This document shows positions 4,645 to 24,727 of a stretch of 64,000 nucleotides of DNA, in pieces. Under the pieces are notes generated by a model, which searched no databases, was not told the origin of the DNA, and worked only from the letters and a program-made list of their open reading frames with translations. The position numbers and the translations under genes are program-made. The stretch's first letter is position 1, and every line of letters begins with the position of its first letter. Location: assembly GCA_949297365.1 (NCBI GenBank), contig CASFSL010000040.1, forward strand, positions 124,001 through 188,000. Direction: 5' to 3'. Origin of the DNA: an uncultured Bacteroidales bacterium. Its GTDB lineage: Bacteria > Bacteroidota > Bacteroidia > Bacteroidales > UBA932.

Positions 4645-4704
4645 AACATACTCTGTCTTTACCTCAAAAGTACGGATTTTTTTGAAAAAAACACACTATT
4701 TCAT

Positions 4705-4736: not shown

Positions 4737-4757
4737 GATTATCAATAACACTAGTAG

Positions 4758-5630
4758 TTATCTTACTCTACCACCCTGTCCTCCAGGAGAAAGAATACTT
4801 GCAATCATGTAATACCCTTCCTCGTTAACATAGCCGGCGAAGAAACCTGATGTCGCGATAAATTCGTTGTCGTTCAGGAATACAAGTTCCACTGATGTGG
4901 CCCCGATAATATTAGTGCCATCATACTGGAAGATGTTCCACTCATAACCATCGGATGCAACATATGTATTCGCAGAATTGATAACCAGCCTGTTGATGAA
5001 GCGCTCAGCAGTGAATTCCTGAGGATTCTCTCCTGTGCCTGTGACACTGATACCATAAACAAGAGGATCTTCAGTAGTTGAAATCATAATTTGACCGTCG
5101 ATAGCCACCATTCCCTGATCACCGGCATCATATTCCCCATATGTCTGGAAAATACCGTCCATACGGTACTGCTCCACAGACTTGAAAGTGTAGGTCATGG
5201 TCGTATTGTCCCCAAGGTTGTCACCGACCAGCCGCACCTCAATTGAAAGTTCGTCTATCGCACGGTAATCCGGAAGACGGACCTCAAAATAGGAGCAAGT
5301 GTCACTGTTTTCTCCTGAGTTGGGACCTACGTATATCTCCTTGCTGGTAAAGATCAGAGTAGAGTCATCCTTACATTTATAAGGATTGCCGTTGATGTCC
5401 GTACCGGTGCTGCTGAGCAGTTCAATACCTACCTTTGTCGCAGTATTGCTGCTTTCAATCTGATGAACAGGCAGATAGAAATAAGAATCCTCAATGGCGA
5501 ATGTCTCGGCAGGAAGGAGTTCCACTTTTGTATTACCTGTCTCAGGCGTAAACTTGTCCTCCGTGCAGGAAGAAAGTACCGCAAGAAGGGCCAGTGTCAA
5601 TATTGAATATCTAATCTGTTTCATTTTCAT
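4758..5630 (-). CDS. Surface lipoprotein, third gene of SusC locus 1
   Basis: The protein has 290 residues with a lipoprotein signal peptide (lipobox LLAVLSSC, Cys about 22), followed by beta-rich sequence without known catalytic motifs. It sits 11 bases after susD1, where SusE/SusF-like or other ligand-binding surface lipoproteins are found in Sus-type operons. Its start (CTEDKFTPETGNTKVELLP) resembles the equivalents in loci 2 and 3 (CYERQFTPTLGSTPVEFV and CYKRQFEPTFGNTTVEFV), so the three are homologous, but this copy is the most diverged. The function as an accessory binding protein is inferred from position only. Confidence 0.7.
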   Translation of the reverse strand: MKMKQIRYSILTLALLAVLSSCTEDKFTPETGNTKVELLPAETFAIEDSYFYLPVHQIESSNTATKVGIELLSSTGTDINGNPYKCKDDSTLIFTSKEIYVGPNSGENSDTCSYFEVRLPDYRAIDELSIEVRLVGDNLGDNTTMTYTFKSVEQYRMDGIFQTYGEYDAGDQGMVAIDGQIMISTTEDPLVYGISVTGTGENPQEFTAERFINRLVINSANTYVASDGYEWNIFQYDGTNIIGATSVELVFLNDNEFIATSGFFAGYVNEEGYYMIASILSPGGQGGRVR

Positions 5631-5641
5631 TGATTTAACTG

Positions 5642-7165: not shown

Positions 7166-7181
7166 GTTCTTTCTGTATTAA

Positions 7182-10136
7182 TTAAAATGTTAATTCCACT
7201 CCTATGCTGAATTCCCTTGTATTGGGATATACTCCCATCTGAATATTGGAGTCAACCTCAGGGTCATATCCGGAGTACTGAGTGATGGTGAACAGGTTTC
7301 TGGCTATAGCGTAGATTCTGGCGCCGGCGAGGAAGCCTGTCTTGTCCATCCAGTGCTGAGGGAAGCTGTAACCGATCTGGAGATTCTTCAGACGCAGGAA
7401 CGAGGCGTTCTCCAGGTAACTGTCGTCAAACTGTCTGGTAGATTCCAGTGAAGGTATATCGGTCTGCTGTCCGGGATGTGTCCAGATGTTCAACATGTCG
7501 GTCGTCATATTGTAGAGCGGGAAGTCCACAGGGTTGGTGAGGAACCACTTGTCGTTGTTGAGAATCCAGTTGCCGGCCACCCATGTGAAGTCGGCTCCTA
7601 CGTACAGTCCTTTCCACTGGAAGTTCAGCTGGATACCGCCGGCCCACGGAGCATATCTCTGCTTGCCGGTCATCACCTGATTTTCCTCCGAGTAGACCTT
7701 GGTCTTGTTTCCGTTCTTGTCATACCACATCTGCATACCGTCACGGGGATCGACTCCTGCCGAACGCACAAAGTAGTATTCGCCCCATGCGTGTCCTACT
7801 TCCATACGCAGACCGGTGTTGGCCAGAGTATAATAGTCTACACCGTCGAAGAGACTGGCAATCCTGTTCTGGTTGTAGTTGAAGTTGGCCTTGATGTTGA
7901 AGTAGATGTCCCTGGTCTGGATAACGTCAAAGCTCAGGTCTACGTCCACACCGCGGTTGTACATGTCAGCGATATTACCCGCACCGGATGCGTATCCTGT
8001 CGTATAGGAATACGGGATATCCATGAGCATGTCGCGGGTCATCTTGTTGTAGAACTCTACGCTTATTCCGAAGAAATTCCACAGACGTGCAGTGACACCG
8101 ATGTTGAGAGTCTCGACAGTCTCCCATGTCAGGTCGGGATTAGGAGGAGTACCGACACCCCATGCCAGTCCGCCATTGTTGTATCGGGAACCGTAAGCAC
8201 CGACTGTACCATAACTCAGGTAATTGCTGATTCCGGAGTTACCTGTGGTACCGTAGCTGGCCTTCAGACGCAGGTCCTGAATCCAGGACACTCCCTGCAT
8301 CCACTCCTCGCGCTTGATGTCCCACATCGCACCTACTGAGTAGAAATTGGCGTACTTCTTATTCACTCCGAACAGGGAGGAGCCGTCCAGACGCCATGAT
8401 GCATCGATGAAATACTTCGAATCATAGTCGTATGACACGCGGGCAAAATATGAGTTGTAGTTTACCTCGGATTTCCCCCAAGAAGGCATTATCGCCTCAG
8501 TACCATACTGAAGGTAAGGCTGACGAAGGTCGCTCTGTCCCTCAGAGGATGCTGAGAAACTCTCATCGTCCGTAATAATCGCCTCCTGTCCCAGGAGAAC
8601 CGCGAAGTTGTTCCTTTCAGCCACTGTGAACCTGTACTCTGCCGTATTGGTGAAAGTCAGCCTGTAGTAACGTTCGAAAGCCTCAGAAGCACTGGGCAGA
8701 GAGCCTGTGAAAGGCCACTCGTCATCAGCGACAGGAAGAGCTTTCTGAGATGCACGCCAGTCATAGGCCTCAACACTCTGCTGAGCACGGAGAGTCAGTC
8801 CCTTGATGGGAGTAATCTGCTGATAAGTGCTGGCGTTAAGCCTTGCTATCGTATATGTAATGGGCTGAATATCGGAGACATGATATGCATTCCACTGCTG
8901 CACGGGATCAAAATACTTCAACTCATCACTATAGTCCACATAGGAATTGCCGGCATCATCCGTCTTAATGGCATAGGGTGACAGCCATGCAGGGAGGTTG
9001 TTGGATGCGAACATGATGTTACCGAAAGAGTTCGCTCCGTTTGAGCTGCCCATATAAGGAGTGGTCTGATACTCCTGATACGACAGACCGATGTTCATAC
9101 CCATCCTCAGCCAGTCGCTGACTTTTGTGTTGACATTGGTACGGATGTTGTATCTGCTCAGGTTGGAGTCAAAAGCGATACCTTCCTGGTCGAATACCCC
9201 GAGGGAGATATAGTAGTCAGTCCTCTCAGATGCTCCGGACACAGATGCGTCCAGGCTCCAGATAGGAGCAGCCTCCTTAAAGAAGTAGTCAACCCAATTG
9301 GTGTTTATACCCAGATTCTGGGACATAGCCTGATACTCAGTCATCTGGAAATCGGGATTTATCATGGTCTGGAACTCAAACCACTGATCCGCATTCATCA
9401 GGTTCATTCTGTGATTGGTCATCTGCGACACACCGTACTGGGCCCTGAGGGACACCACGGGCTTCTCTCCTACAGCACCTTTCTTGGTGGTGATGTAGAT
9501 GACACCGTTGGCGGCACGGGAACCGTAGATGGCAGTTGAGGAAGCGTCCTTCATGACCACGATGCTCTCGATATCGTTGCTGTTCAAAGACGAGAATACA
9601 TCGGCGGATACAGGAGAACCGTCCAGAATGAACAGAGGTGTCGTGCTGGCGTTTATGGAACTTACACCGCGCAGACGCATGGTCGCTGTCTCCGAAGGCT
9701 CACCTGATGATGTGAACACCTGAAGTCCGGACACCTGACCCTGGAGAGCATCCGCCGCGTTGGCCGTAGGCCTGTTGGCTATCACCTTCTTGTTCACGGT
9801 CGAGGCGGAACCCACGACTGAGGAGATCTTCCTGGCGGAACCGTAGCCCACGACGATAACGTCATCGAGCATCTCGGCCTCGATCTCCATTGAAACGTCC
9901 ACCGTAGTTCTGCCGTTAACGGGTATCTCCTGGGTGGTGTAGCCCATGAAGCGTACTTCGAGAACTCCGTCTGACGGTACCTGGATGGAATACACACCCA
10001 TCGCGTCAGTCATGACCCAGCGGGCAGCATCGCCCTGCACCAGGATGGTCGCACCGGCTATGCCCTCACCTGTCGAAGCATCAGTAACAGTACCCGTCAC
10101 CGTGATGTCCTGCGCAAAAACCGCAGTCGTTGCCAC
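7182..10136 (-). CDS. susC: SusC/RagA TonB-dependent transporter, locus 1 (headless, silent orientation)
   Basis: This is an outer-membrane TonB-dependent channel of about 984 residues. It has an N-terminal carboxypeptidase-regulatory-like domain (DITVTGTVTDASTGEGIAGA), a plug (ISSVVGSASTVNKK, then SSTAIYGSRAANGVIYITTK) and a 22-strand-type barrel ending in LTF. The usable start is missing: the nominal GTG at 10136 lies inside the recombination site, and only the tail of a signal peptide (LLVATTAVFAQ) remains in frame. Upstream is the 3' end of the recombinase gene, not a promoter. Joining site 1 to site 2 would restore MKKIRLFLTGLLLVATTAVFAQ, a normal signal peptide. I therefore read this as the stored, unexpressed cassette of an inversion system. 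A low-level product from recombinase read-through with the GTG start is possible but would not be exported well. Confidence 0.93.
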   Translation of the reverse strand: MATTAVFAQDITVTGTVTDASTGEGIAGATILVQGDAARWVMTDAMGVYSIQVPSDGVLEVRFMGYTTQEIPVNGRTTVDVSMEIEAEMLDDVIVVGYGSARKISSVVGSASTVNKKVIANRPTANAADALQGQVSGLQVFTSSGEPSETATMRLRGVSSINASTTPLFILDGSPVSADVFSSLNSNDIESIVVMKDASSTAIYGSRAANGVIYITTKKGAVGEKPVVSLRAQYGVSQMTNHRMNLMNADQWFEFQTMINPDFQMTEYQAMSQNLGINTNWVDYFFKEAAPIWSLDASVSGASERTDYYISLGVFDQEGIAFDSNLSRYNIRTNVNTKVSDWLRMGMNIGLSYQEYQTTPYMGSSNGANSFGNIMFASNNLPAWLSPYAIKTDDAGNSYVDYSDELKYFDPVQQWNAYHVSDIQPITYTIARLNASTYQQITPIKGLTLRAQQSVEAYDWRASQKALPVADDEWPFTGSLPSASEAFERYYRLTFTNTAEYRFTVAERNNFAVLLGQEAIITDDESFSASSEGQSDLRQPYLQYGTEAIMPSWGKSEVNYNSYFARVSYDYDSKYFIDASWRLDGSSLFGVNKKYANFYSVGAMWDIKREEWMQGVSWIQDLRLKASYGTTGNSGISNYLSYGTVGAYGSRYNNGGLAWGVGTPPNPDLTWETVETLNIGVTARLWNFFGISVEFYNKMTRDMLMDIPYSYTTGYASGAGNIADMYNRGVDVDLSFDVIQTRDIYFNIKANFNYNQNRIASLFDGVDYYTLANTGLRMEVGHAWGEYYFVRSAGVDPRDGMQMWYDKNGNKTKVYSEENQVMTGKQRYAPWAGGIQLNFQWKGLYVGADFTWVAGNWILNNDKWFLTNPVDFPLYNMTTDMLNIWTHPGQQTDIPSLESTRQFDDSYLENASFLRLKNLQIGYSFPQHWMDKTGFLAGARIYAIARNLFTITQYSGYDPEVDSNIQMGVYPNTREFSIGVELTF

Positions 10137-10143
10137 GAGTAAC
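10129..10143 (-). repeat. Inversion site 1 (silent, susC1)
   Basis: On the minus strand this reads GTTACTCGTGGCAAC: 5-bp inverted arms (GTTAC/GCAAC, one mismatch) around the spacer TCGTG. It lies in the signal-peptide codons of susC1 and is in opposite orientation to site 2 at 11505. Similarity to the active copy begins at this point and continues into the gene; upstream the sequences differ. Confidence 0.8.
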
Positions 10144-10159
10144 GTAGCAGGCGTATTGA

Positions 10160-11200
10160 TTATACACCGATAACGTTTTTAATTATTCCCTTTATCTCGT
10201 CTTCGTTGCTTTGACACAAGTACCTCTTAAATGACTCCTCGCTGGAATGACCGCTGATACTGCGTATCTGTCCGGTACTCAGCTTGCCTCCCAGGTAAAG
10301 ATTAGTGATGAAGCTCCGGCGCGCCGTGTGGGAGGATACCAGCTCGTATTTCGGCTTCGATACTTTTATCTTCACGCCTCCTTTCCTACAGTACACCGTC
10401 GTAAGAGCATCTATCCCCGCCATGCGGCACAACTGCTTGATCTTCGAATTCATCACAGAAACAGACACTTTTGGAGTCCGTCCGCCCCAATGTTCAATAA
10501 TGTCAAGAAGCCGCTTGTCCAGAACCGGGACGATAACGGTACGGTCCGTCTTCTTCTGTATCATCCGCAATGCCTTATACGCAATCCCGTCTATTGTTAT
10601 CTCCTCCATCTCGTCCATTGAGATGCCGGAATAATCCGAGAACCGCTGCCCTGTCCAGCACCCTATCAGAAACACGTCCCTGACTTTCTGCAAAGAAGAC
10701 GGTGACTCTGTCAGATCAAGAGCGGCCAGCCCCGATATCTCATCCTCCGTCAGATATACCTTTTTGAATACAGACGAAGCTCTGTGAGTCACAAACCCCT
10801 TGCTGTTCTGAATATTATTGTCCGAGACGCCCTCTTCCAGCGCACTGTTCATGACAGCCTTGATCAACGTCATATATTGGTATTTTGTACTGTCCATATA
10901 ACGGCGCGAATCGCAGAACTCCATAAAGCGTGAATATGTCTCCATTGAGATCTCCGAAATTCTGATGCCGTCACACCCTATAAACTCCTCAAAATCCGGC
11001 CAGAGCCGCAATATCTTTTTATAATTGGCAATACTGTTGTGCGCATAGGCATTACCTTTATATAAATAAGCACTGTACTCCATGTCTGCTATTTTTTTTC
11101 CGATATACGCAATAAATATGTCACTGGCTTTCTTATGCCTGCTGTATGACATGGAAAATCTGATTGAAACTCCGAGAATGTTTTTACAAAATCTAAACAT
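10160..11200 (-). CDS. Tyrosine recombinase (putative SusC-locus invertase)
   Basis: This is a phage-integrase-family recombinase of 346 residues. An N-terminal SAM-like DNA-binding domain (about 25-130) is followed by the catalytic domain (about 145-335). The active-site residues are all visible: R186 (WTGQRFSDY), the beta-hairpin lysine around 216-217 (IQKKTDR), H291 and R294 (SHTARRSF), H318 (ISGHSSEES) and the nucleophile Y327 (FKRYL). It lies between two divergent susC genes and its stop codon is 17 bases from inversion site 1, which makes it the obvious candidate to act on the three sites. No excisionase, phage or conjugation genes are nearby, so it looks like a resident invertase rather than the integrase of an element. 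Start ATG at 11200 fits a short leader; an internal Met at residue 17 is an alternative. Confidence 0.93.
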   Translation of the reverse strand: MFRFCKNILGVSIRFSMSYSRHKKASDIFIAYIGKKIADMEYSAYLYKGNAYAHNSIANYKKILRLWPDFEEFIGCDGIRISEISMETYSRFMEFCDSRRYMDSTKYQYMTLIKAVMNSALEEGVSDNNIQNSKGFVTHRASSVFKKVYLTEDEISGLAALDLTESPSSLQKVRDVFLIGCWTGQRFSDYSGISMDEMEEITIDGIAYKALRMIQKKTDRTVIVPVLDKRLLDIIEHWGGRTPKVSVSVMNSKIKQLCRMAGIDALTTVYCRKGGVKIKVSKPKYELVSSHTARRSFITNLYLGGKLSTGQIRSISGHSSEESFKRYLCQSNEDEIKGIIKNVIGV

Positions 11201-11218
11201 ATTTTAAAAATTTAGGGT

Positions 11219-11250
11219 TAAAGTTTACATCATCTATTGCTTTTTACAAA
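11219..11250 (-). promoter_or_regulatory. Candidate recombinase promoter
   Basis: On the minus strand TTTG (plus-strand 11247-11250) is followed after about 19 bases by TAAACTTTA (11219-11227), an imperfect match to TAnnTTTG. Transcription would start a few bases before the ATG at 11200. It overlaps the rightward susC promoter, so the two may compete. Confidence 0.4.
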
Positions 11251-11267
11251 AAAAAAAATCACTTTTG
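11236..11267 (+). promoter_or_regulatory. Invertible promoter driving the expressed susC
   Basis: ATTG at 11236-11239 and CACTTTTG at 11260-11267 are spaced by 20 bases, close to the Bacteroides consensus TTTG-N19-21-TAnnTTTG (one mismatch in each element). It is the only promoter I see that could serve the three susC operons. It lies inside invertible segment A, followed by an unusually long leader of about 200 nt. Confidence 0.6.
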
Positions 11268-11344
11268 CAGTTTAGATAACTGACCTTTGAAATGCTTATA
11301 GGCAACATAAATATCGAAAACAAGCTGACAACAACATACGTTTT

Positions 11345-11379
11345 CCTAATTGTAGGAGGTCCTTGCGCTAAGCACAAGG
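11345..11379 (+). promoter_or_regulatory. Hairpins in the susC leader
   Basis: Two adjacent hairpins lie in the AT-rich leader: CCTA-ATTG-TAGG (11345-11356) and CCTTG...CAAGG (11361-11379, with an inner GC/GC pairing). They could stabilise or regulate the mRNA shared by all three operons. No known riboswitch class is recognised and there is no T-tract after them. Confidence 0.35.
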
Positions 11380-11472
11380 GCTTTCCGGTAGCTGATACAA
11401 TATTTACAAACTAATTTGAATTAATAAATTTAAGTAACATTTAACTATTATTAACTTTAAAAAATTATCTAC

Positions 11473-14457
11473 ATGAAAAAGATCAGACTATTTTTAACAG
11501 GTCTGTTACTCGTGGTAACTGCCGCGGCGTACGCGCAGGACATCACAGTTACAGGTACTGTTACTGATGCTTCGACAGGTGAGGGCATAGCCGGTGCGAC
11601 CATACTTCTCCAGGGTGACGCCACCCGTTGGGTTATGACCGACGCGATGGGTGCATACACCATCTCAGTACCGTCAGACGGAGTCCTTGAGGTGCGCTTC
11701 ATGGGCTACACCACCCAGGAGATACCCGTTAACGGCAGAAGCACGGTGGACGTTTCAATGGAGATCGAGGCCGAGATGCTCGATGACGTTATCGTCGTGG
11801 GCTACGGTTCCGCTACAAAGATCTCCTCAGTCGTGGGTTCCGCCTCGACCGTGAACAAGAAGGTGCTGGCCAACAGGCCTACAGCCAACGCCGGTGACGC
11901 CCTCCAGGGCCAGGTGTCCGGACTCCAGGTGTACTCCTCCTCCGGTGAGCCTTCAGCCAGCGTATCCATGCGTCTGCGCGGTGTGAACTCCATCAACTCC
12001 AGCAGCACTCCTCTGTTCATTCTGGACGGAGCACCCGTGTCTTCCGATGTGTTCACTACATTGAACAGCAACGACATTGAGAACATAGTGGTTATGAAGG
12101 ACGCATCCGCGACTTCTATCTACGGTTCCCGTGCAGCCAACGGTGTCATCTACATCACCACCAAGAAAGGTGCACGTGGAGACAAACCTGTAGTCTCTGT
12201 AAGAGCCCAGTATGGAGTATCTCAGATGGCCCGTCACAAGATGGACCTGATGAACTCCGATCAGTGGTTTGAGTTCCAGACCATGACAAACCCCAATTTC
12301 CAGATGACTGAGTATCAGACTATGTCACAGACCCTCGGTATCAATACCAACTGGAGAGAGTACTTCTTCAACGAGGCCGCGCCGGTATGGAGTCTGGATG
12401 CGTCTGTATCCGGAGCCACGGACAAGACTGACTACTACTTCTCTCTCGGAACATTTGACCAGGAAGGTATCGCCCTCAGTTCCAACATGAACAGGTACAA
12501 TATCCGCGCAAATGTCAACACAAGGGCCAATGACTGGCTGAAGATGGGTATGAACATCGGTCTGACTTACCAGGAGTACCAGACCACTCCTTATATGTCA
12601 AGCTACCAGAACTCATTCGGAAATGTAATGTACGCCACAAACAACCTCCCTACATGGTTGTCTCCGTATGCGCTCAAAACCGATGAGAACGGAAGTCCCT
12701 ACATTGACTACAGCGATGAACTGATTTATTTCGATGCGATGCAGGAATGGAACCCTTATCATCTTGCTGACATCAACCCGCTGTACTATACCACTGCCAG
12801 ACTCAATGCCAGCACATATCAGGAGATTACACCTATCAAGGGACTGACTCTCAAGGCTCAGCAGAGCATAGAGGCTTACGACTACAGAGGATCCTCCAGA
12901 GCGTATCCTGTTCCTGATGATGAGTGGCCCTTTGCTGATGCGCCCGGTGCGTCAGAGTCTTTCGAGCGTTACTACAGGATGACTTTCACCAATACGGCCG
13001 AGTATCGGTTTGATATAGCCGATAAGAACCACTTCTCTGTCTTGATCGGTCAGGAGGCCATTCTGTCAAACACCGAGAGCTTCGGTGCTTCATCCAACGG
13101 ACAGAGTGATATGCGTCAGCCTTATCTGAATTACGGAACGCAGGCGGATATCCCTTCATGGGGAAAGTCAGAGACAACCTACAACTCATACTTTGCACGC
13201 GCCACCTATAATTTCGACGAGAAGTATTACCTTGATGCATCCTGGCGTATAGACGGCTCGTCCCTGTTCGGAGAGAACAAGAGATATGCCAATTTCTATT
13301 CTGTAGGTGCCATGTGGGACATCAAGCGCGAGGAGTGGATGCAGGGAGTGTCCTGGATTCAGGACCTGCGTCTGAAGGCCAGCTACGGTACCACAGGTAA
13401 CTCAGGTATCCCCTACAACTATATGTCATACGGTACAGTCGGTGCATACGGCTCTGTATACGGAGGCGCTGCATGGGGTGTATCCACTCCCCCGAATCCC
13501 GACCTGACATGGGAGACTGTGGAGAACCTCAACATAGGAGTCACTGCCCGTATGTGGAACTTCTTTGAGGTAGGTGTCGAATTCTACAACAAGGTCAGCC
13601 GCGACATGCTGATGGAGATTCCTTACTCCATGACTACAGGATATGCTTCAGGATGGGGTAATATAGCCGACATGCTCAACCGCGGTGTGGATGTAGACCT
13701 GAGCTTTGACGTTATCCAGACCAGGGACATCTACTTCAACATCAAGGCCAACTTCAACTACAACTACAACGAGATTCTCAGCCTGTTCGACGGCGTGGAC
13801 AGCTATACTCTTACCAACACCGGTCTGAGAATGGAAGTCGGTTATCCTTGGGGTGAGTATTTTGCAGTACGTTCGGCTGGCGTTGACCCCCGCGACGGTA
13901 TGCAGATGTGGTACGACAAGGACGGCAACATCACCAAGAATTACTCCAACGACTATGCAGTGATGACCGGCAAGCAGAGATATGCTCCGTGGGCCGGAGG
14001 CTTGCAGCTGAACTTCCAGTGGAAAGGACTGTATGTCGGAGCCGACTTCACATGGGTCGCTGACAAATGGGTATTCAACAATGACAAATGGTTCCTTACG
14101 AACCCCACTCAATTCCCTATGTTCAACATGACTACTGATATGCTCAATATCTGGACCGAACCCGGAGATGTCACCAATATCCCCGCTCTGAGTTCTACAC
14201 GTCATATCGATGATGACACACTTTACGAGAACGCGTCATTCCTGCGTCTGAAGAACCTCCAGATATCCTACAGCTTCCCTCAGCACTGGATGGACAGAAC
14301 CGGCTTCCTGGCAGGAGCCAGAATATACGCTATCGCCAGAAACCTGTTCACCATAACCGGGTACACCGGATATGATCCGGAAATCGATACCAACGTGCAG
14401 ATGGGTAACTATCCCAACACGAGGGAGTTCACCTTTGGTGTGGAATTAACATTTTAA
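11473..14457 (+). CDS. susC: SusC/RagA TonB-dependent transporter, locus 2 (expressed orientation)
   Basis: This is the intact 994-residue outer-membrane channel. It has a complete signal peptide (MKKIRLFLTGLLLVVTAAAYAQ), a carboxypeptidase-regulatory-like domain (about 25-105), a plug (about 115-225: ISSVVGSASTVNKK, ATSIYGSRAANGVIYITTK) and a long beta-barrel ending FGVELTF. Of the three copies it alone has a promoter, leader and proper ATG. The inversion site falls in codons 11-16 of the signal peptide. Its first 330 or so bases after the site are almost identical to those of copies 1 and 3, as is the block around 13690-13770. Overall it is closest to copy 1. With SusD2 it should form the import complex now exposed on the surface; the ligand is unknown. 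Confidence 0.96.
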   Translation: MKKIRLFLTGLLLVVTAAAYAQDITVTGTVTDASTGEGIAGATILLQGDATRWVMTDAMGAYTISVPSDGVLEVRFMGYTTQEIPVNGRSTVDVSMEIEAEMLDDVIVVGYGSATKISSVVGSASTVNKKVLANRPTANAGDALQGQVSGLQVYSSSGEPSASVSMRLRGVNSINSSSTPLFILDGAPVSSDVFTTLNSNDIENIVVMKDASATSIYGSRAANGVIYITTKKGARGDKPVVSVRAQYGVSQMARHKMDLMNSDQWFEFQTMTNPNFQMTEYQTMSQTLGINTNWREYFFNEAAPVWSLDASVSGATDKTDYYFSLGTFDQEGIALSSNMNRYNIRANVNTRANDWLKMGMNIGLTYQEYQTTPYMSSYQNSFGNVMYATNNLPTWLSPYALKTDENGSPYIDYSDELIYFDAMQEWNPYHLADINPLYYTTARLNASTYQEITPIKGLTLKAQQSIEAYDYRGSSRAYPVPDDEWPFADAPGASESFERYYRMTFTNTAEYRFDIADKNHFSVLIGQEAILSNTESFGASSNGQSDMRQPYLNYGTQADIPSWGKSETTYNSYFARATYNFDEKYYLDASWRIDGSSLFGENKRYANFYSVGAMWDIKREEWMQGVSWIQDLRLKASYGTTGNSGIPYNYMSYGTVGAYGSVYGGAAWGVSTPPNPDLTWETVENLNIGVTARMWNFFEVGVEFYNKVSRDMLMEIPYSMTTGYASGWGNIADMLNRGVDVDLSFDVIQTRDIYFNIKANFNYNYNEILSLFDGVDSYTLTNTGLRMEVGYPWGEYFAVRSAGVDPRDGMQMWYDKDGNITKNYSNDYAVMTGKQRYAPWAGGLQLNFQWKGLYVGADFTWVADKWVFNNDKWFLTNPTQFPMFNMTTDMLNIWTEPGDVTNIPALSSTRHIDDDTLYENASFLRLKNLQISYSFPQHWMDRTGFLAGARIYAIARNLFTITGYTGYDPEIDTNVQMGNYPNTREFTFGVELTF
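11505..11519 (+). repeat. Inversion site 2 (promoter-linked, active)
   Basis: GTTACTCGTGGTAAC is a perfect pair of 5-bp inverted arms around a 5-bp spacer, TCGTG. The asymmetric spacer gives it direction: it points right, opposite to sites 1 and 3. It lies within signal-peptide codons LLLVVT, so exchange keeps the frame. Confidence 0.8.
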
Positions 14458-14473
14458 TTAATACAGAAAGAAC

Positions 14474-16000
14474 ATGAAAAAGATATTTAAAGCAACCTTT
14501 TTACTGGCAGCAGCGGCTGGACTTTTCAGCTGTTCGATGGATCTCCGTCAGCCCGGAGCCATCGACACTGAGAATGCGATGTCCTCTATTCAGGATGCAC
14601 AGAATCTCAGAAGGGGACTGTACGTCAACTTCCGCGGAGCCGCAGCCGGAGGTTTTGTTACCTATTCAGAGATTCAGAGCGACCTCTTCCAGGCTACATC
14701 CGGATACGGCAACAATTACGGTTCGTTCTTCCGCTGGGACTTCACCTCAAGTGACGAACCCGGTGTCTGGAGCAGTTGCTACGGTGTCATCGCCAATGCG
14801 AACTTCTTCATCGAAAATGCAGAGAACATACTTAACGGCAATTCAGAGGAGTTCTCCGAGGAAGACCGCGCCAACCTTCAGCTCTATCTCGGCGAGGCAT
14901 ACTTCTTCCGCGCATACTTCCACTATGAACTAGCAGTAAGATTCTGCAAGCCCTACGGAGCGGCCACGACCAGTCCCGAGACTGACTTCGGTATCCCGTA
15001 CGTGACAGTCTACCATCCTACGGCCGAGAGGGACAATTATCCCTCAAGAGGTACTCTGGCCGCCACATACGAGCACATCAACGAGGATCTGGACGTAGCC
15101 GAGAGTTACATCACTACAACCGGCAGCGTAGGCAGCATGTGGCTTACGCAGGATGCAGTTGACGCCTTCAGATCAAGGGTGTACCTCAATATGGGTGATT
15201 ACAGCAAAGTCATTGAGTACGCGGAGCCGCTTGTATCCAGCAACCGTTATCCTCTGGTCCAGACAAGCTCTGACTTCAGTGCCATGTGGGTCAATGACTC
15301 CGGCAGCGAGTGCATCATGATGCTGGATGCCTCCAACGAGAGCAACAACCAGCCCAGTTCCTATGATGCCATGTATATATCCTATCAGGCAAGTAACTCT
15401 GAGTACAGGCCCGGATATCTGCCTACACAGGGTGTAGTTGATATCCTGCTGGAGTTCGACGGTGACTTCAGGGCCACTCAGTTCCTCGCTCAGAGACTCG
15501 TAACAGAGCCTTATGGAACAGCTACTGTCTATATTATGAACAAATTCCCCGGCAACCCCGCACTTTTCTCAGAAGGTATGTCGGACGGTCAGTCCAACTA
15601 CCTGCATAAGAACAAGCCGTTCCGTATAGCCGAGGTATATCTCAATCTTGCCGAGGCCTATGCGGCATCCAACCAGAACGGTCTTGCCAGCAACATTCTC
15701 AATACTCTGAGAGCTGCCAGAATAAGCGGATACTCGCCCGCATACAGCCAGTCAGCCGTGATGGATGAGATCAAGGACGAGCGTGCCCGTGAGCTCATCG
15801 GCGAGGGATTCCGTCTGTGGGATCTCAAGAGATGGGGAGACCCCGTAGTAAGGGCTGCTGCCCAGGACCCCGGAATCATGATCAATGACGCAGCCCTGAC
15901 CGGCACCGTATCTGATGATATCAGGTTCTTGTGGCCTATCCCCAAGGCTGAGACGGACGCCAATCCCAACATCGCTGGTGAACAGAACCCCGGATACTAA
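14474..16000 (+). CDS. susD: SusD/RagB-family outer-membrane lipoprotein, locus 2
   Basis: The protein has 508 residues and is the ligand-capturing lid partner of SusC2. The lipobox is AAGLFSC (Cys20). SusD-typical segments are LRRGLYVNFRGAAAGGF, GEAYFFRAYFHYELAVRF and, near the C-terminus, ERARELIGEGFRLWDLKRWG followed by LWPIPKAETDANPN. It starts 16 bases after susC2, and that spacer plus the first codons match locus 1 almost base for base, pointing to a duplication of the susC-susD unit. Presumed expressed together with susC2 from the invertible promoter. Confidence 0.95.
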   Translation: MKKIFKATFLLAAAAGLFSCSMDLRQPGAIDTENAMSSIQDAQNLRRGLYVNFRGAAAGGFVTYSEIQSDLFQATSGYGNNYGSFFRWDFTSSDEPGVWSSCYGVIANANFFIENAENILNGNSEEFSEEDRANLQLYLGEAYFFRAYFHYELAVRFCKPYGAATTSPETDFGIPYVTVYHPTAERDNYPSRGTLAATYEHINEDLDVAESYITTTGSVGSMWLTQDAVDAFRSRVYLNMGDYSKVIEYAEPLVSSNRYPLVQTSSDFSAMWVNDSGSECIMMLDASNESNNQPSSYDAMYISYQASNSEYRPGYLPTQGVVDILLEFDGDFRATQFLAQRLVTEPYGTATVYIMNKFPGNPALFSEGMSDGQSNYLHKNKPFRIAEVYLNLAEAYAASNQNGLASNILNTLRAARISGYSPAYSQSAVMDEIKDERARELIGEGFRLWDLKRWGDPVVRAAAQDPGIMINDAALTGTVSDDIRFLWPIPKAETDANPNIAGEQNPGY

Positions 16001-16018
16001 TAAATAATCATACAGAAC

Positions 16019-16930
16019 ATGAGAAATCTAAAAATATTACTGACAGTTGCGGCAGCGGGTGTACTGTTCACCTCCTGCTATGAGAGACAGTTTACTCCTA
16101 CATTAGGCAGTACTCCTGTAGAATTCGTATCATCCACTATCGATACGACTCTCAACAGCTCCACCATACGCATTCCTGTCCACATGACCGAGCAGTCGGG
16201 CACCGGTGCCAAGGCCACCCTTGTATTCACAGGCGGAACTGTTACCATGAAGAGCGACGGCTCCACCAGAGAAGTGGTCGAGTTCACCAATGACCAGACC
16301 GGTTATGAGAACGGAGGAGACATCCTCATCACTTCCTATACTGTGAATATCGGTGCTTACGATGAGGAAGTGGACGGAGAAGGTCTTCCTACCAACAGTT
16401 TTGAGATACTGGTTCCGGACTATCTCACTTTTGAGAGCATGACACTGAACTTTGAGCTCAAGGCTGACAATCTGGGCAGCAACGCTACACTGACCTACAC
16501 CGCTACAGCACCTACAGAGGTTGATTTCACCGGTATGTGGAACATTGGCGGTGGTCAGTATCAGATTACTCTTGACGAGACAGGAACAGGATATTATATT
16601 TACACCGAGCTTGCTAAAGATCCGTTTACCGGAAGTCGTTCCGGTAATAATCTTACGATTAATACTACCGGACCTCAACTTGACACAGGAGCAGAATATG
16701 GTGTTGTAACATTGGGTATGTTTGCTTATCATGAAGAAACAGCAGGAGACGGTACATTCTATCTGTGGCCCAATGAGAACTGCGTATGGTCATTCGGGGA
16801 GGACGGAGCATCTGTAACTCTGACAAACGGAATGTTTATCGGTTTCCCGAATCCTGATAATCCTCAAAGTTACATCTACTTTGGAGATACATATGTCCAG
16901 GAGAACGGTACTACAGGATCCAGAATGTAG
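16019..16930 (+). CDS. Surface lipoprotein, third gene of SusC locus 2
   Basis: The protein has 303 residues with a lipoprotein signal (GVLFTSC, Cys about 20). The mature protein is beta-rich, including a segment (VNIGAYDEEVDGEGLPTN) nearly identical in the locus 3 paralog; the C-terminal third (from about residue 165) differs strongly. A conserved shared half with a variable half suggests a surface-display module plus a changing binding face. This is inference, and no known domain is recognised. It is 18 bases after susD2 and ends the operon. Confidence 0.72.
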   Translation: MRNLKILLTVAAAGVLFTSCYERQFTPTLGSTPVEFVSSTIDTTLNSSTIRIPVHMTEQSGTGAKATLVFTGGTVTMKSDGSTREVVEFTNDQTGYENGGDILITSYTVNIGAYDEEVDGEGLPTNSFEILVPDYLTFESMTLNFELKADNLGSNATLTYTATAPTEVDFTGMWNIGGGQYQITLDETGTGYYIYTELAKDPFTGSRSGNNLTINTTGPQLDTGAEYGVVTLGMFAYHEETAGDGTFYLWPNENCVWSFGEDGASVTLTNGMFIGFPNPDNPQSYIYFGDTYVQENGTTGSRM

Positions 16931-16963
16931 TGAATTTATAGAGAATTTCACTTTTAATTAAAA

Positions 16964-16995
16964 TATGGGGCCGTCAGCAGTGCTGGCGACCCCAT
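16964..16995. terminator. Bidirectional terminator between loci 2 and 3
   Basis: TATGGGG at 16964-16970 pairs with CCCCATA at 16989-16995, with inner GCC/GGC-type and CAGCA/TGCTG pairing. It is flanked by A/T-rich tracts on both sides and serves the two convergent lipoprotein genes. It lies near the middle of invertible segment B, so it works in either orientation. Confidence 0.85.
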
Positions 16996-17016
16996 AACTT
17001 TTTATTGTAAAACCGA

Positions 17017-17925
17017 TTATTTACTTCCCTTCGTTCCCGCTGCTATCGGTGCAAATAACTGGTAATACATTCCCGATCCCGGGTCTTCCGGATCGGCAAA
17101 TCCCATGAACAATCCGTTGGTGACTGTAACAGTTTCGGCATCATCAAATGAGAGCACGACATTTTTAGCGTCTATGCCGGAACCGTTATATATCCAGCAG
17201 ACAATATCTACATTGTACGCCGGGCCACCTTCTTCAAGCTGTATACCCTCCAGCCTCGGACCGTCCATATCCAAGGTCAGATTGTTGCCGTCACGTTCAG
17301 CACCAAAAGTCAGAGGAACCTGTCCCTGGAATGAATAAGTGAACTGATAAGCTCCGTCAGTCTGGCTGATCTCAAAGGTGTTTCCGCTGATCGTCCATGA
17401 ACCGGTGATGATTACCTCGGAAGACCTCTCTATGCTGACAGTTGTAGTCTTGTTTGTGCCGGCATTGCCACTCACAATCTCAAAGCTCATGGTAAGAGTC
17501 TGCATGTTTCTGTAGTTCGGAACTCTTACCTCGAGGTTGTTGGTCGGAAGACCTTCTCCGTCCACTTCCTCATCGTAAGCACCGATATTCACAGTATAGG
17601 AGGTGACGATAATGTCTCCCTTTCCGTTGTTGGCATTGTCGTAGCCTTCCTGATCATTGGTAATCGGAAGCACATCATGCGATGTTCCGTCAAGCATGGT
17701 TACCTTTCCGCCCGTGAAGCTCACCACGGCCTGTGCTCCGGTAGATGACTGCTCGGTCATACGGATGGGGATATTGATGTACTCACCCGTGAACGTCATC
17801 TCCTGACTGGAATTGACAAACTCCACTGTGGTATTGCCGAACGTGGGCTCGAACTGCCTTTTATAGCAGGAAGTCAACAGCACTCCGGCTGCAGCGGCCA
17901 TTAACAATATCTTAATATGTCTCAT
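17017..17925 (-). CDS. Surface lipoprotein, third gene of SusC locus 3
   Basis: The protein has 302 residues with a lipoprotein signal (GVLLTSC, Cys about 20). It is a paralog of the locus 2 lipoprotein: the signal region, the RQFEPTFGNTTVEFV start and the VNIGAYDEEVDGEGLPTN block are shared, while the C-terminal half diverges. It is 19 bases after susD3. It lies in a cassette without a promoter in this orientation and is probably silent. Unknown function; accessory ligand binding is inferred from position. Confidence 0.72.
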   Translation of the reverse strand: MRHIKILLMAAAAGVLLTSCYKRQFEPTFGNTTVEFVNSSQEMTFTGEYINIPIRMTEQSSTGAQAVVSFTGGKVTMLDGTSHDVLPITNDQEGYDNANNGKGDIIVTSYTVNIGAYDEEVDGEGLPTNNLEVRVPNYRNMQTLTMSFEIVSGNAGTNKTTTVSIERSSEVIITGSWTISGNTFEISQTDGAYQFTYSFQGQVPLTFGAERDGNNLTLDMDGPRLEGIQLEEGGPAYNVDIVCWIYNGSGIDAKNVVLSFDDAETVTVTNGLFMGFADPEDPGSGMYYQLFAPIAAGTKGSK

Positions 17926-17944
17926 ATTCTTTTGCAGTTTATTA

Positions 17945-19465
17945 TTAGTATTCTGGATTCTGTTGACCCGCGATATTGGGATTGGCGTCTATCTCGGCCT
18001 GAGGAATGGGGAAAATAAACCTGCCGTTTTCCGGAGATACCTCGAAGTCCGTATAGGTGTCAGGCTGATAGATCGCATTGCGTACCTGCGCATCAGTCCT
18101 GGTGAAACCGCGTCCGAAGCGCTTGAGGTCCTGGATGCGGAAGCCCTCTCCTATAAGCTCGCGTACGCGCTCGTTGAGGATTGCGTCCTCAATACTCTCT
18201 CCATTCTGGTTCGGCTGATAGTTTGTGGCACGGGCCGATCTCAGAGTGTAGAGGTCTGCCCACGGATCACTTGCTCCTGCCTGCGGTGCTCCGCCTTTTG
18301 CAAGAGCCTCTGCGCGGATCAGGTACATCTCGGCGATGCGGAAGACCTTGGGCTTGTTCTGGTAGTTCCATGAAATGTCATTCTGCCTGAGAGCGGGATT
18401 GCCCTGGAACTTGTAGAGTATATACATGTCAAAGTTTCCAATACTCTGCACAGTCACAGTAGTCCATCTGAGATGGTTGCTCATACGCCAGTCGTCGGGA
18501 ATCTGCTCGAACAGATCCACTACCCACTGTTCAGGATAATAGTAAGGCTGGTATATGCCCTTATTGGCATCGTATCCTATGTATCCGTAGTCGTTTGAGG
18601 CTCCCAGCTCATTGGGATAGCTGGCAAACAGCTGAAGTATGCATTCGTCTCCGGAGTCATTGACCCACATGCTCTGGAACGCGGTCTCAGAGTTGACGAG
18701 AGGATAGGTTCCGCTGTTGATGAGTTCGCTGGACTTCTCCACGGCCAGGTCATAATTTCCCATTTCAAGGGCAACTCTGGCCTGAAGTGCCGTAACGGCA
18801 TCCTTTGTGATACGGTCACTGCCTTTCTGTCCCGGAGTAGTGATGAGTTCCTGGGCTGTCGCAAGGTCGGAGACAATCATCTCGAAGGTATGCTCAAGGG
18901 TTCCGCGGTCAGGATATCTGGTCTGATCTGACGTAGGAGTATAGGATGTAACGTAAGGGATGCCGTAGGACTGTTCATTGCCTACATATGTCTTACAGAA
19001 CATCTCGGCAAGTTCCAGATGGTAGTATGCGCGGAGGAAATAAGCCTCGCCTTTCCATACTTCCAGATTGGCTATATCCTCCTCGCTCCACTCGGAGGTG
19101 TTGACAGCATCAGCCTTCTCTATGAAGAAGTTGGCGTTGGCAATGGTATTGTAGGAAGCTCCCCAGAGAGATTCTATCTCAGCTAGATCAGCAGCCATAT
19201 ACCAGCCGTACAGACTGCCTCCTACGTTGCCGAAGCCGGTAGAGGCATGGAAGAGGTCGCTTCTTATCTCGTCAAGCGACGCATACGTGCCGCCTACCCT
19301 GCTTCTGAATGCCACGTAGAGTCCATCACGGAGTTTCTCCGCGTCAGTTATGGTCTGGAGCGCATTTCCAGGCTCAACAGTACCTGCGGGACGAAGTTCC
19401 ATATTGCAGCTTACCGCGCAGGCAAGCGCCGCCAAAACACTTGATATTATCAGTATCTTTTTCAT
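17945..19465 (-). CDS. susD: SusD/RagB-family outer-membrane lipoprotein, locus 3
   Basis: The protein has 506 residues with a lipoprotein signal (ALACAVSC). Family signatures are LRDGLYVAFRSRVGGTY, GEAYFLRAYYHLELAEMF, ERVRELIGEGFRIQDLKRFG and FIFPIPQAEIDANPN. It is clearly more distant from SusD1 and SusD2 than those are from each other, and the susC-susD spacer (11 bases) also differs. It should pair with SusC3, which would be displayed only after inversion of segment B. Confidence 0.93.
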   Translation of the reverse strand: MKKILIISSVLAALACAVSCNMELRPAGTVEPGNALQTITDAEKLRDGLYVAFRSRVGGTYASLDEIRSDLFHASTGFGNVGGSLYGWYMAADLAEIESLWGASYNTIANANFFIEKADAVNTSEWSEEDIANLEVWKGEAYFLRAYYHLELAEMFCKTYVGNEQSYGIPYVTSYTPTSDQTRYPDRGTLEHTFEMIVSDLATAQELITTPGQKGSDRITKDAVTALQARVALEMGNYDLAVEKSSELINSGTYPLVNSETAFQSMWVNDSGDECILQLFASYPNELGASNDYGYIGYDANKGIYQPYYYPEQWVVDLFEQIPDDWRMSNHLRWTTVTVQSIGNFDMYILYKFQGNPALRQNDISWNYQNKPKVFRIAEMYLIRAEALAKGGAPQAGASDPWADLYTLRSARATNYQPNQNGESIEDAILNERVRELIGEGFRIQDLKRFGRGFTRTDAQVRNAIYQPDTYTDFEVSPENGRFIFPIPQAEIDANPNIAGQQNPEY

Positions 19466-19476
19466 CTCGTTGTATT

Positions 19477-22455
19477 TTAGAATGTGAACTCAGCACCGAT
19501 GGTGAACTGTCTGGAGTTGGGGTAGACACCCAGCTGCAGGTTGCCGTCCACCTCCGGGTCGTAGCCTGAGTACTTGGTTATGGTAAATAGGTTACGCGCG
19601 ATGGCGTATACTCTGAATCCGGCGATGAAACCGGTACGGTCCATCCACTTCTTGGGGAACTCGTAGGATATCTGCAGGTTCTTCAGACGCAGGAAGGAAG
19701 CATCCTCCAATATGGTCTCGTTCACACCTTCCGCTCTGGGAGAGTCCTTGCACGGTATATTTGTAATCTGACCAGGTGTCATCCACATATTCAGCATCTC
19801 GGCTGAACCGTTCTGTGTAGTAAGGAATGTGGGGTTGGTGAGGAAGAAACGGTCATTGTTGATCATCCACTTGTCCGCTACCCAGGAGAAATCGGCTCCT
19901 ACGTACAGTCCCTTGTACTGGAAGTTCAGCTGGATACCTCCGGACCACGGGGCGAACATCTGCTTGCCGGTCATCACTGCATAGTCACTGGAGAAATTCT
20001 TGGTGATGTTGCCGTCCTTGTCGTACCACATCTGCATACCGTCGCGGGGGTCTACACCTGCCGAACGTACTGCAAAGAACTCACCGTAGGGATAACCGGT
20101 CTGGTAGGAAACACCGGTACCGGGAACCGTGTATTCACTGCGTCCTCCGAATAGCTCTGTAATCTCGTTGTAGTTGTAGTTGAAGTTGGCCTTGATGTTG
20201 AAGTAGATGTCCCTGGTCTGGATAACGTCAAAGCTCAGGTCTACGTCCACACCGCGGTTGAGCATGCTGCCTGCATTACCGGCTCCTGATCCATGTCCTG
20301 TCGTATAGGAATACGGGATACCCATGAGAAGGTCGTGAGTCATCTTGTTGTAGAACTCGACGTTTACATCCATGAAGTTCCACAGACGGGCACTGACTCC
20401 TATGTTGAGGGCCTCGACGGTCTCCCATGTCAGGTTGAGGTTCTCAGGAGTGCCGAGTCCCCATGCCATGGCACTGTTGTACAGACCGTACTGGTCAATA
20501 GTTCCGATCCACTCGTAGTTGCCGATGCTGGCATTACCTGTGGTACCGTAGCTGGCCTTCAGGCGCAGGTCCTGGATCCAGGACACTCCCTGCATCCACT
20601 CCTCGCGCTTGATATCCCACATGGCACCTACTGAATAGAAGTTGGCATAGCGGCTGTCTGTTCCGAAACGGGACGAACCGTCAATACGCCATGACGCGTC
20701 GATGTAGTACTTAGAATCATAATTGTACGACAGACGGGCAAAGTAGGAGTTGAACGTAGCCTCAGAGATACTGTTGGAAAGTGAGGTCAAAGCGGGGTCT
20801 CCTTGGGTAAGCAGATTGTTTCTCCAGTCTGTCAGACCATTGGCGGTTGCTCCGAACTGGTCGCTCTTGTTCAGGATGGCCTCCTGACCGGCCAGAATGA
20901 TAAACTCGTTCTTCTCAGCCACATTGAAGCGGTACTCGGCAGTATTGGTGAAAGTCATCTGATAATATCTCTGGAAACTTTCGGCGTGCGTTCCCTGATC
21001 GATGAACGGATCTTCGGGTTTGGCATAGGCCTTCATACGGTAATCAAAGGCTTCCAAGTTCTGTTGAGCCCTGATAGTTAATCCCTTTATAGGAGTAAGC
21101 TCCAGATAGGTGCTTCCGTTCAGGCGGGCCGTCGTGTAAGATTGCGGCTGAAGGTCCATCAGATAATAGATATTGTATAGATTCGTTTCAGGGAAATAGT
21201 TTCTCTCCGAACTGTAATCAACATAAGACTTGCCCTGCTCGTCTGTTTTGATCTCATACGGAGTCTGCCAAGGCAGGTAGTAGTTTGACGCATGTATGGG
21301 ATTGTATCCGAAGTTGTTGCTCTGACTAGCGAATCCGTTAGTTATATAATCCTGGTACGAAACACCTATGTTGGCACCCATCTTCAGCCAGTCAGTAACG
21401 CGTGTGTTTACGTTTGAACGGAAGGTATAGCGTGCCAGACTTGAGTTCGGCAGCGTTCCCTCCTGATCGAATACTCCGAGAGAGAAGTAATAGTCTGTCT
21501 TGTCGGATGCACCGGACACCGACAGGTCGGCGCTCCATACGGGAGCCGTCTCCCTGAAGAAATATTCTCTCCAGTTGGTGTTGATGCCCAGGGTCTGAGC
21601 CAGTTCCATCTCCGGCGTAAGAGTAAAGTTGGGATCCATCATTTTCTGGAATGTGAACCACTCATTGGAGTCCATAAGGTCTATCTTATGTTCCATCATA
21701 GTGGAGAATCCGTACTGTCCCCTGAGGTTTACTACAGGCTTCTCACCTTTTGTTCCCTTCTTGGTGGTGATGTAGATGACACCGTTGGCCGCACGGGAAC
21801 CGTAGATGGCAGTTGAGGAGGCGTCCTTCATGACCACGATGCTCTCGATGTCGTTGCTGTTAAGTGCGTTGAACACCGAGGATGACACAGGGGCTCCGTC
21901 CAGCACGATAAGAGGTTCCGTGCCGGCATTGATGGAGTTCACACCGCGCAGACGCATAGTGACATCTTCCGAAGGCTCACCTGATGATGTGAACACCTGA
22001 AGTCCGGATACCTGACCCTGGAGAGCATCTCCGGCGTTGGCGGACGGCCTGTTGGCTATCACCTTCTTGTTCACGGTCGAGGCGGAACCCACGACTGAGG
22101 AGATTTTTCTGGCGGAACCGTAACCCACGACGACTACGTCATCGAGCATCTCGGCCTCGATCTCCATTGAAACGTCCACCGTGCTTCTGCCGTTAACGGG
22201 GATCTCCTGGGTGGTGTAGCCCATGAAGCGCACCTCAAGGACTCCGTCTGACGGTACTGAGATGGTGTAAGCACCCATCGCGTCGGTCATAACCCAACGG
22301 GTGGCGTCACCCTGGAGAAGGATGGTCGCACCGGCTATGCCCTCACCTGTCGAAGCATCAGTAACAGTACCCGTCACTGTGATATCCTGCGCATATGCCG
22401 CGGCAGTTACCACGAGTAATAAAAAAGGACTTACCGTAAACCGGTAAATCCTCAT
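19477..22455 (-). CDS. susC: SusC/RagA TonB-dependent transporter, locus 3 (headless, silent orientation)
   Basis: This is an outer-membrane channel of about 980 residues with the same domain order as copies 1 and 2 (regulatory-like domain, plug with SSTAIYGSRAANGVIYITTK, barrel ending GAEFTF). The apparent ATG at 22455 is not credible: the first ten or so codons (MRIYRFTVSP) are the stem of the hppA terminator, and genuine susC similarity starts at inversion site 3 (22420). There is no promoter. After recombination with site 2 it would read MKKIRLFLTGLLLVVTAAAYAQ and be exported. I regard the part from about 22420 down as the real cassette. The first 330 bases are nearly identical to the other copies, the barrel clearly different. 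Confidence 0.93.
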   Translation of the reverse strand: MRIYRFTVSPFLLLVVTAAAYAQDITVTGTVTDASTGEGIAGATILLQGDATRWVMTDAMGAYTISVPSDGVLEVRFMGYTTQEIPVNGRSTVDVSMEIEAEMLDDVVVVGYGSARKISSVVGSASTVNKKVIANRPSANAGDALQGQVSGLQVFTSSGEPSEDVTMRLRGVNSINAGTEPLIVLDGAPVSSSVFNALNSNDIESIVVMKDASSTAIYGSRAANGVIYITTKKGTKGEKPVVNLRGQYGFSTMMEHKIDLMDSNEWFTFQKMMDPNFTLTPEMELAQTLGINTNWREYFFRETAPVWSADLSVSGASDKTDYYFSLGVFDQEGTLPNSSLARYTFRSNVNTRVTDWLKMGANIGVSYQDYITNGFASQSNNFGYNPIHASNYYLPWQTPYEIKTDEQGKSYVDYSSERNYFPETNLYNIYYLMDLQPQSYTTARLNGSTYLELTPIKGLTIRAQQNLEAFDYRMKAYAKPEDPFIDQGTHAESFQRYYQMTFTNTAEYRFNVAEKNEFIILAGQEAILNKSDQFGATANGLTDWRNNLLTQGDPALTSLSNSISEATFNSYFARLSYNYDSKYYIDASWRIDGSSRFGTDSRYANFYSVGAMWDIKREEWMQGVSWIQDLRLKASYGTTGNASIGNYEWIGTIDQYGLYNSAMAWGLGTPENLNLTWETVEALNIGVSARLWNFMDVNVEFYNKMTHDLLMGIPYSYTTGHGSGAGNAGSMLNRGVDVDLSFDVIQTRDIYFNIKANFNYNYNEITELFGGRSEYTVPGTGVSYQTGYPYGEFFAVRSAGVDPRDGMQMWYDKDGNITKNFSSDYAVMTGKQMFAPWSGGIQLNFQYKGLYVGADFSWVADKWMINNDRFFLTNPTFLTTQNGSAEMLNMWMTPGQITNIPCKDSPRAEGVNETILEDASFLRLKNLQISYEFPKKWMDRTGFIAGFRVYAIARNLFTITKYSGYDPEVDGNLQLGVYPNSRQFTIGAEFTF
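22406..22420 (-). repeat. Inversion site 3 (silent, susC3)
   Basis: On the minus strand this is ATTACTCGTGGTAAC: the arms match except for the first base, and the spacer TCGTG is identical to the other two sites. It is inverted relative to site 2 and in the same direction as site 1. The T-tract of the hppA terminator begins at the next base. Confidence 0.8.
22421..22452 (-). terminator. hppA terminator insulating the silent susC3
   Basis: AGGACTTACCGT at 22426 pairs with ACCGGTAAATCCT up to 22452 (near-perfect 10-11 bp stem), and on the minus strand it is followed by six T. It terminates leftward transcription from hppA exactly before inversion site 3, so the headless susC3 is shielded from read-through. 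Confidence 0.9.
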
Positions 22456-22483
22456 TAAAGACTATTGCTGACAATTATAAAAT

Positions 22484-24697: not shown

Positions 24698-24727
24698 AGT
24701 TGGAATTAGAATTAAGAAATCGGTTAA

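Follow-up and report, generated by a model that had tools for sequence, protein, structure and literature searches.

SusC/SusD shufflons are a kind of locus that is already known, and the original study of the one governed by Tsr0667 is reportedly that of Nakayama-Imaohji from 2009. In Bacteroides fragilis, Tsr0667 is described as the cause of multiple inversions of the shufflon type, which affect three SusC/SusD clusters as well as nine other regions (PMC4747536), and as shuffling SusC/SusD alleles (PMC11852207). Pressure from phages or from the host is a common proposal for such Bacteroides loci. Here we describe a locus of three susC-susD-lipoprotein operons and one tyrosine recombinase gene, bounded by an AraC-type regulator gene and hppA, in DNA of an uncultured Bacteroidales bacterium (GTDB lineage UBA932; assembly GCA_949297365.1, contig CASFSL010000040.1, positions 124,001 to 188,000 of the forward strand). 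This whole stretch of 64,000 nucleotides is called the window, and positions are counted from its first letter. The locus is probably a DNA-inversion switch, in which a predicted promoter and the first 11 SusC codons would be rejoined by the recombinase, at a short core, to one of the three operons. It resembles the B. fragilis shufflon, in which one invertase and multiple SusC/SusD inversions give alternative alleles or promoters (PMC4747536, PMC11852207).

A site shared by three susC starts

Open reading frames and family profiles bore out the gene content given in a preliminary description of the window, made from its letters alone, which had reported three SusC-SusD-lipoprotein operons and a single tyrosine recombinase. 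The starts of all three susC genes have in common a 10-base core, TTACTCGTGG, which stands in one reading phase and is read TTA CTC GTG. It forms part of a palindrome-like site present on the left (GTTACTCGTGGCAAC, 10129-10143, minus strand, core at 10133-10142), in the middle (GTTACTCGTGGTAAC, 11505-11519, plus strand, core at 11506-11515) and on the right (ATTACTCGTGGTAAC, 22406-22420, minus strand, core at 22410-22419); only in the middle site do the two 5-base arms match. The left and right sites are oriented opposite to the middle one and are direct repeats of each other.

The site pattern RTTACTCGTGGYAAC had exactly three matches in the draft host genome (2.28 Mb, 51 contigs), all of them at susC starts, and the reversed pattern, used as a control, had none. 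With up to two mismatches allowed, the window still held three sites, against a mean of 0.27 in shuffled sequence, and three were reached in 0 of 100 shuffles. This genome-wide search confirmed the earlier proposal of a short shared site, oriented at copies 1 and 3 opposite to that of the promoter-linked copy 2. Across 14 genes of the window, 3% of leucines are encoded by TTA, the codon that the site uses. Inversion at the core in silico gave four arrangements and, as had been claimed, the reading frame was kept in all of them, the three starts sharing one phase.

The recombinase gene (10160-11200, minus strand; 346 amino acids) sits between two of the sites. Its product matches PF13102 and PF00589, with a score of 28.4 bits against a cut-off of 27.1 for the latter, catalytic domain, and carries the catalytic residues R186, K217, H291, R294, H318 and Y327. 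Four of these (R186, K217, H291 and H318) were invariant in 53 aligned sequences, that of the window included; R294 and Y327 were each replaced in at least one other sequence. A sequence search for a solved structure related to the recombinase returned none. When the host genome was scanned for PF00589, seven genes were found and the recombinase of the window was missed, so that seven is a lower bound.

Occurrence of the site and of the recombinase in relatives

All assemblies used for comparison were drafts, with one genome per species. The palindrome GTTACTCGYGGTAAC occurred in 6 of 199 genomes of the family, all from the host genus, and its reversed control matched 1 genome. A recombinase at least 56% identical to that of the window was encoded in 4 of the 19 genomes of the genus (the host, G013, G003 and G017), all four of which hold the palindrome, which was found in 2 of the 15 genus genomes without a close recombinase (p = 0.004, a value that is only indicative, the genomes being related and not independent). 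Ten of the genomes without a close recombinase (G001, G002, G004, G006, G008, G010, G011, G012, G015 and G016) have similar residues at the susC start, written in other codons, and lack the palindrome. Although the recombinase has diverged to 56-60% identity, the palindrome has kept 14 or 15 of its 15 bases. Partner sites had the same spacer, TCGTG in the window, in G013 and at two contig ends of G003, and TCGCG at both sites of G017. Upstream homology between the copies stopped at the palindrome in the window, in G013 and in G017.

Simpler layouts were observed at the same position between hppA and rpoC. In G017, a promoter and the recombinase lie between two intact inverted sites, with a susC operon on each outer side, which corresponds to the 1.4-kb inversion of the window alone. 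In G003, a promoter, the recombinase and a single site adjoin hppA, the recombinase having no site on its other flank, and the contig end towards rpoC carries a site in inverted orientation; as far as these broken contigs allow, this corresponds to the 10.9-kb inversion alone. The window joins both at its middle site. G002 and G012 have one operon at the locus (hppA, leader, susC, susD, lipoprotein gene), and no close recombinase was found in them. A tblastn search for recombinase remnants on seven stretches of G002, G003, G005, G012 and G014 gave none that was convincing (best E 0.06). With single-operon, one-inversion and two-inversion loci at one position, the stepwise assembly of a shufflon becomes traceable. 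We tentatively propose, as a possibility that we would not favour, that the two-inversion switch was joined from two simpler ones persisting in sister species, a promoter flip as in G017 and an operon swap as in G003, sharing one palindrome within signal-peptide codons; that the terminator hairpin, itself read as signal peptide, parks an operon; and that leakage would give four distinguishable surface states, from the four arrangements.

Two contigs of G014 (locus L065 on contig C31 and L064 on C57) have the palindrome at one end or a few bases from it, and a second susC locus, with the TCGCG spacer, is present in G003 (L066, contig C77). Both cases may point to further switching loci, or simply to assemblies broken at repeats.

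Elsewhere in the family, in other genera, related recombinases (31-41% identity) are flanked, on one side or on both, by susC-like genes whose starts are nearly identical (L041/L042 of G032, L011 and L013). In G032, this distant recombinase stands between two near-identical susC operons, whose susC-susD pairs are alike almost from end to end, and the palindrome is absent from that genome. These loci are probably further switches with other sites.

Expression position and right-hand position

A promoter-like pair was found only at the middle site. The predicted promoter (11237-11267, plus strand; TTG at 11237-11239 and CACTTTTG at 11260-11267) resembles the -33/-7 promoters of Bacteroidota and is followed by the predicted transcribed leader of the expression site (11268-11472, plus strand), drawn from an alignment of seven leaders of the genus. 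The pair TTG...CANNTTTG, which we take to be a Bacteroidota-type -33/-7 promoter, was present in 6 of these 7 leaders, including that of the window, i.e., in all that reach that far, the slice from G010 being short. A scan for the TA..TTTG motif gave no match at the left or the right site, and one for sigma-70-type promoters was uninformative (5 found, 3.2 expected). A 400-base query of leader and start matched in 16 of the 19 genus genomes, in some over the coding part only. Within the leader (11310-11400), AAGCUGAC and UGUAGG were conserved in most of the seven, whether a switch was present or not; the predicted fold of the leader was not unusual (z = -1.19).

In the present assembly, the promoter-linked gene is susC2 (11473-14457, plus strand), which begins with MKKIRLFLTGL followed by the core. 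The body of susC1 (7182-10143, minus strand) is read from the left site, which comes after the recombinase stop codon, and the recombinase-side flank has no in-frame ATG. The third copy, susC3 (19477-22455, minus strand), had been taken to be start-less. This was rejected, as an in-frame ATG at 22455 opens a whole signal peptide, MRIYRFTVSPFLLLVVTAAAYAQ. Thus, of the promoter, leader and ATG that copy 2 alone was said to possess, the promoter-like pair was found at it alone and the ATG was not. Likewise, a complete signal peptide is rebuilt in silico with the promoter-side or the right flank, but not with the recombinase-side flank. Independent transcription starts and start codons directly upstream of susC1 and susC3 had been named as evidence against a switch; since copy 3 is not start-less, part of that evidence exists, with susC1 lacking an in-frame ATG.

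The ATG of copy 3 lies 28 nt from the end of hppA (membrane pyrophosphatase, assigned by family profile; 22484-24697, minus strand), which is on the same strand and forms the fixed right flank. The predicted intrinsic terminator of hppA (22421-22453, minus strand; 12-bp stem) overlies the start of copy 3, with its hairpin at 22425-22453 and its U-run ending at the right site. The hairpin has a predicted energy of -17.5 to -18 kcal/mol and none of 200 shuffles was equally stable. The right position is thus predicted to be off, or leaky. Simple expression of this position by read-through from hppA was considered and set back, as the terminator-like hairpin speaks against it. In each arrangement made in silico, one operon was promoter-linked, one lay behind the terminator and one was start-less. 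The earlier count of four arrangements and three states, with one operon on at a time, therefore holds on paper only if the terminator silences the right position; if it is leaky, there would be four expression states.

An inverted segment in genome G013

Comparison with related genomes, which the preliminary description had advised, revealed an alternative arrangement in G013, a near relative. On its contig CALVDG010000007.1, the stretches 1-12464 and 21710-38865 of the window are colinear, and between them 17462-22419 and 11506-17004 stand inverted. G013 keeps the right flank, with hppA and the hairpin, and the body adjoining it is of the susC2 type in place of susC3. Of the two nested inversions that had been proposed, this assembly thus displays the 10.9-kb one; the 1.4-kb one was not seen directly. 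The exchange point was placed within an interval that starts at the core and runs about 285 nt downstream, over which the middle and right copies are near-identical. Gene identity between the window and G013 ranged from 85% (susC2) to 100%; many genes of the locus, though not others such as susC2 and murI, were 97-100% identical, so the rearrangement is probably recent.

Along the flanks, identity to G013 over 1-38500 jumps between 88% and 100% from one 500-base step to the next, with lower values (76-92%) in parts of susC2-susD2; this points to frequent homologous exchange among closely related lineages. The C-terminal part of the operon 3 lipoprotein gene lip3 (17017-17461) had no DNA match in G013, and its N-terminal part was 98.7% identical; the end of this gene appears to have been replaced and to be hypervariable.

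Combinations of starts and bodies in public proteins

Among the matches listed, to which all counts on public proteins refer, 27 clusters were at least 77% identical to one of the three SusC bodies, 19 of them at least 93%. The right-flank start, MRIYRF, was seen in 5 of these 19 clusters, all with body 3 or the G013-type body 2 and none with body 1. Six clusters had the truncated start, always with body 1, and seven an MKKI-type start, joined to body 1 (two clusters), a type 2 body (two) or body 3 (three); the remaining cluster had another start. A map with two inversions predicts this pattern, with body 1 never beside hppA. In addition, each of the two N-termini is found with type 2 bodies and with body 3 in further public contigs, of which one is 257,963 bases long.

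Body 1 with a promoter-linked start is also seen in P0008. This protein and P0009 were rejected as evidence of switching, their residues, LLLMM and LLLMV, being unable to encode the site. In the three clusters that join the promoter-linked start to body 3, 26-38 residues are missing near the N-terminus, and P0005 and P0018 have chimeric bodies; either could result from homologous exchange or from errors of assembly. Four SusC3-type proteins (P0043, P0048, P0050 and P0053) lack 26-47 residues in a common N-terminal domain, with differing end points, which may reflect collapsed assembly or real deletions.

Proposed mechanism and alternatives

We suggest that the recombinase binds the palindrome and exchanges strands in the core, which between inverted partners would lead to inversion. 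Between the middle and right sites (10.9 kb), this would let operons 2 and 3 trade places, one standing in the expression position and the other parked beside hppA; between the left and middle sites (1.4 kb), it would turn the promoter and the recombinase towards operon 1. The left position would be silent for want of a start codon. The right position, with its in-frame start and whole signal peptide, would be kept silent by the terminator of hppA, whose U-run ends at that site, and may leak. The outcome would be a population mixed for the displayed surface transporter. This reading is partly supported by the arrangement in G013, the two N-termini of single bodies, the link between palindrome and recombinase, and the one-inversion relatives. 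The reason for switching we infer, as we do the silencing, the 1.4-kb inversion and the action of the enzyme on the sites.

Several observations, here and under the alternatives below, weigh against such a switch. The evidence on arrangements comes from assemblies and public proteins of different genomes. In G005 and G014, the site is present and no close recombinase was found; the G005 contig stops 2.2 kb past its site and the G014 contig at its site. Because the left and right sites are direct repeats, site-specific excision of about 12.3 kb is possible, a hazard that the preliminary description left out. The hairpin was found by a simple terminator scan with 0.4 chance matches expected in the stretch; it is not special to the parked position, because a strong one follows hppA in G003 and G005 too (the same sequence does so in G013, and in G002 only a weak one was found). 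Truncated starts are combined with a type 2 body in P0012 (84%) and with body 3 in P0021 (79%), so other layouts exist in other lineages. Finally, the longest identical stretch between the middle and right copies is 272 nt in G013, so that a short-read misjoin is possible there; it is only 68 nt in the window, whose own arrangement is therefore safer.

A first alternative, which we regard as doubtful and yet worth holding in view, is that only the 10.9-kb inversion works, in which case the left site would be a relic and operon 1 a silent gene-conversion donor. The 3' arm of the left site is indeed broken, both in the window and in G013, but its core is intact. The promoter cassette points the same way in these two genomes; in G017, by contrast, a layout with two intact sites serves the small inversion alone. 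ATTAVFAQ after the left core was seen in truncated starts only (listed clusters of at least 93% identity). The one protein that might document the small inversion is P0004 (source not listed), the sole site-compatible one with a promoter-linked start and body 1. After the core, P0004 reads VVTAAAYAQ, the residues of the middle copy, where exchange at the core would give VATTAVFAQ of copy 1, so it is not a simple product of core exchange; it may have arisen by homologous exchange, gene conversion or assembly. It nevertheless joins the promoter-linked start to body 1, which argues against operon 1 being a donor only.

Less probable, in our view, is RecA-dependent crossing-over or gene conversion between the similar susC 5' ends, with the palindrome and the recombinase incidental or only initiating. 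These ends are inverted repeats, 83-87% complementary over 716-1100 nt, and the three copies are mosaic, which points to homologous exchange. Since the exchange in G013 could be mapped no more finely than to the site and the roughly 285 nt after it, it fits RecA-dependent and recombinase models alike and could have come about by homologous recombination. Moreover, the bases after the middle site of G013 are those of the window's middle type and not of the right copy; here, as in P0004, what follows the site goes with the upstream context, and the chimeric bodies P0005 and P0018 exist. Such exchange would not, however, readily explain why upstream homology ends at the palindrome in three genomes, why the palindrome is absent from ten genomes that have a similar start but no close recombinase and conserved where the recombinase has diverged, or why two of the sites flank a recombinase whose catalytic residues are present.

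A frozen duplication without present switching, the difference in G013 being an old rearrangement or a misassembly, is very improbable: single draft genomes per species and the 272-nt repeat of G013 leave room for it, but the near-identity of many locus genes speaks for a recent change and bodies of types 2 and 3 are found with both N-termini in further contigs.

Gene content of the locus and host genome

The three SusC proteins of the window scored 733.4-740.6 bits against the SusC/RagA family TIGR04056 (cut-off 368.25). Copies 1 and 2 are 80.6% identical, copies 1 and 3 68.8%, and copies 2 and 3 70.5%; identity is 84-100% per 50 columns over the first 150 columns of the alignment, after which the bodies diverge. 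Operon 1 further comprises susD1 (5642-7165, minus strand; PF07980/PF14322) and the lipoprotein gene lip1 (4758-5630, minus strand), an open reading frame that matched no Pfam family. In operon 2, susC2 is followed by susD2 (14474-16000, plus strand) and lip2 (16019-16930, plus strand), and in operon 3, susC3 by susD3 (17945-19465, minus strand) and lip3 (17017-17925, minus strand); both SusD proteins were assigned by Pfam, and lip3 is an open reading frame. The SusD copies are 46-67% identical to one another and the lipoproteins 27-49%, lip1 matching the other two at 29.4% and 26.7%. The product of lip2 is a predicted beta-sandwich with a weak Calx-beta-like match; its structure model is of middling confidence (mean predicted local distance difference test, pLDDT, 67.9) and its beta-sandwich matches are weak. 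A scan of positions 4000-26000 against Rfam gave nothing at the gathering score.

In the draft host genome, four proteins passed the SusC/RagA cut-off, three of them inside this locus; the 19 genus genomes encode 0 to 9 SusC-family proteins each (E 1e-100). The host genus is probably Candidatus Coprenecus (Rikenellaceae in NCBI's tree), because G006 and G016, of the same genus, share N-termini with the public Candidatus Coprenecus proteins P0016 and P0017. Coprenecus was not mentioned among the literature matches listed, which are a small part of all matches and no proof of absence.

Comparison with known systems

In the BT1040-BT1046 region of B. thetaiotaomicron, several susC genes beside one recombinase reportedly exchange their 5' ends, as Porter et al. 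are said to have described in 2020. This cluster may be the closest match of all. In Campylobacter fetus, recombination of the sap genes is RecA-dependent. One expression site to which silent surface-protein genes are joined by recombination is also found in the vpma system of Mycoplasma agalactiae, and an expression site with recombined silent genes is likewise described for sap of C. fetus and omp of Dichelobacter nodosus (PMC11852207). These three systems differ from the present locus in protein family and host. Single invertible promoters of the Mpi/Tsr19 type are comparable to the 1.4-kb inversion, which, as in G017, amounts to promoter inversion with the recombinase inside. In the window, in contrast, the sites lie within signal-peptide codons, so that the start of the protein would move with the promoter.

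With three of the four SusC-family proteins in the switch, one inversion would change most of the large transporters displayed. Both the compact recombinase and the very short site lend themselves to testing. In contrast to the Tsr0667 shufflon as described, the recombinase is encoded within the locus, and the rest of the genome has no further copy of the site pattern. What it adds to the known systems is the genus, a self-contained locus with a genome-unique site pattern, relatives with one inversion each and a position parked behind a terminator, and it would extend SusC/SusD shuffling beyond cultured Bacteroides to an uncultured gut genus.

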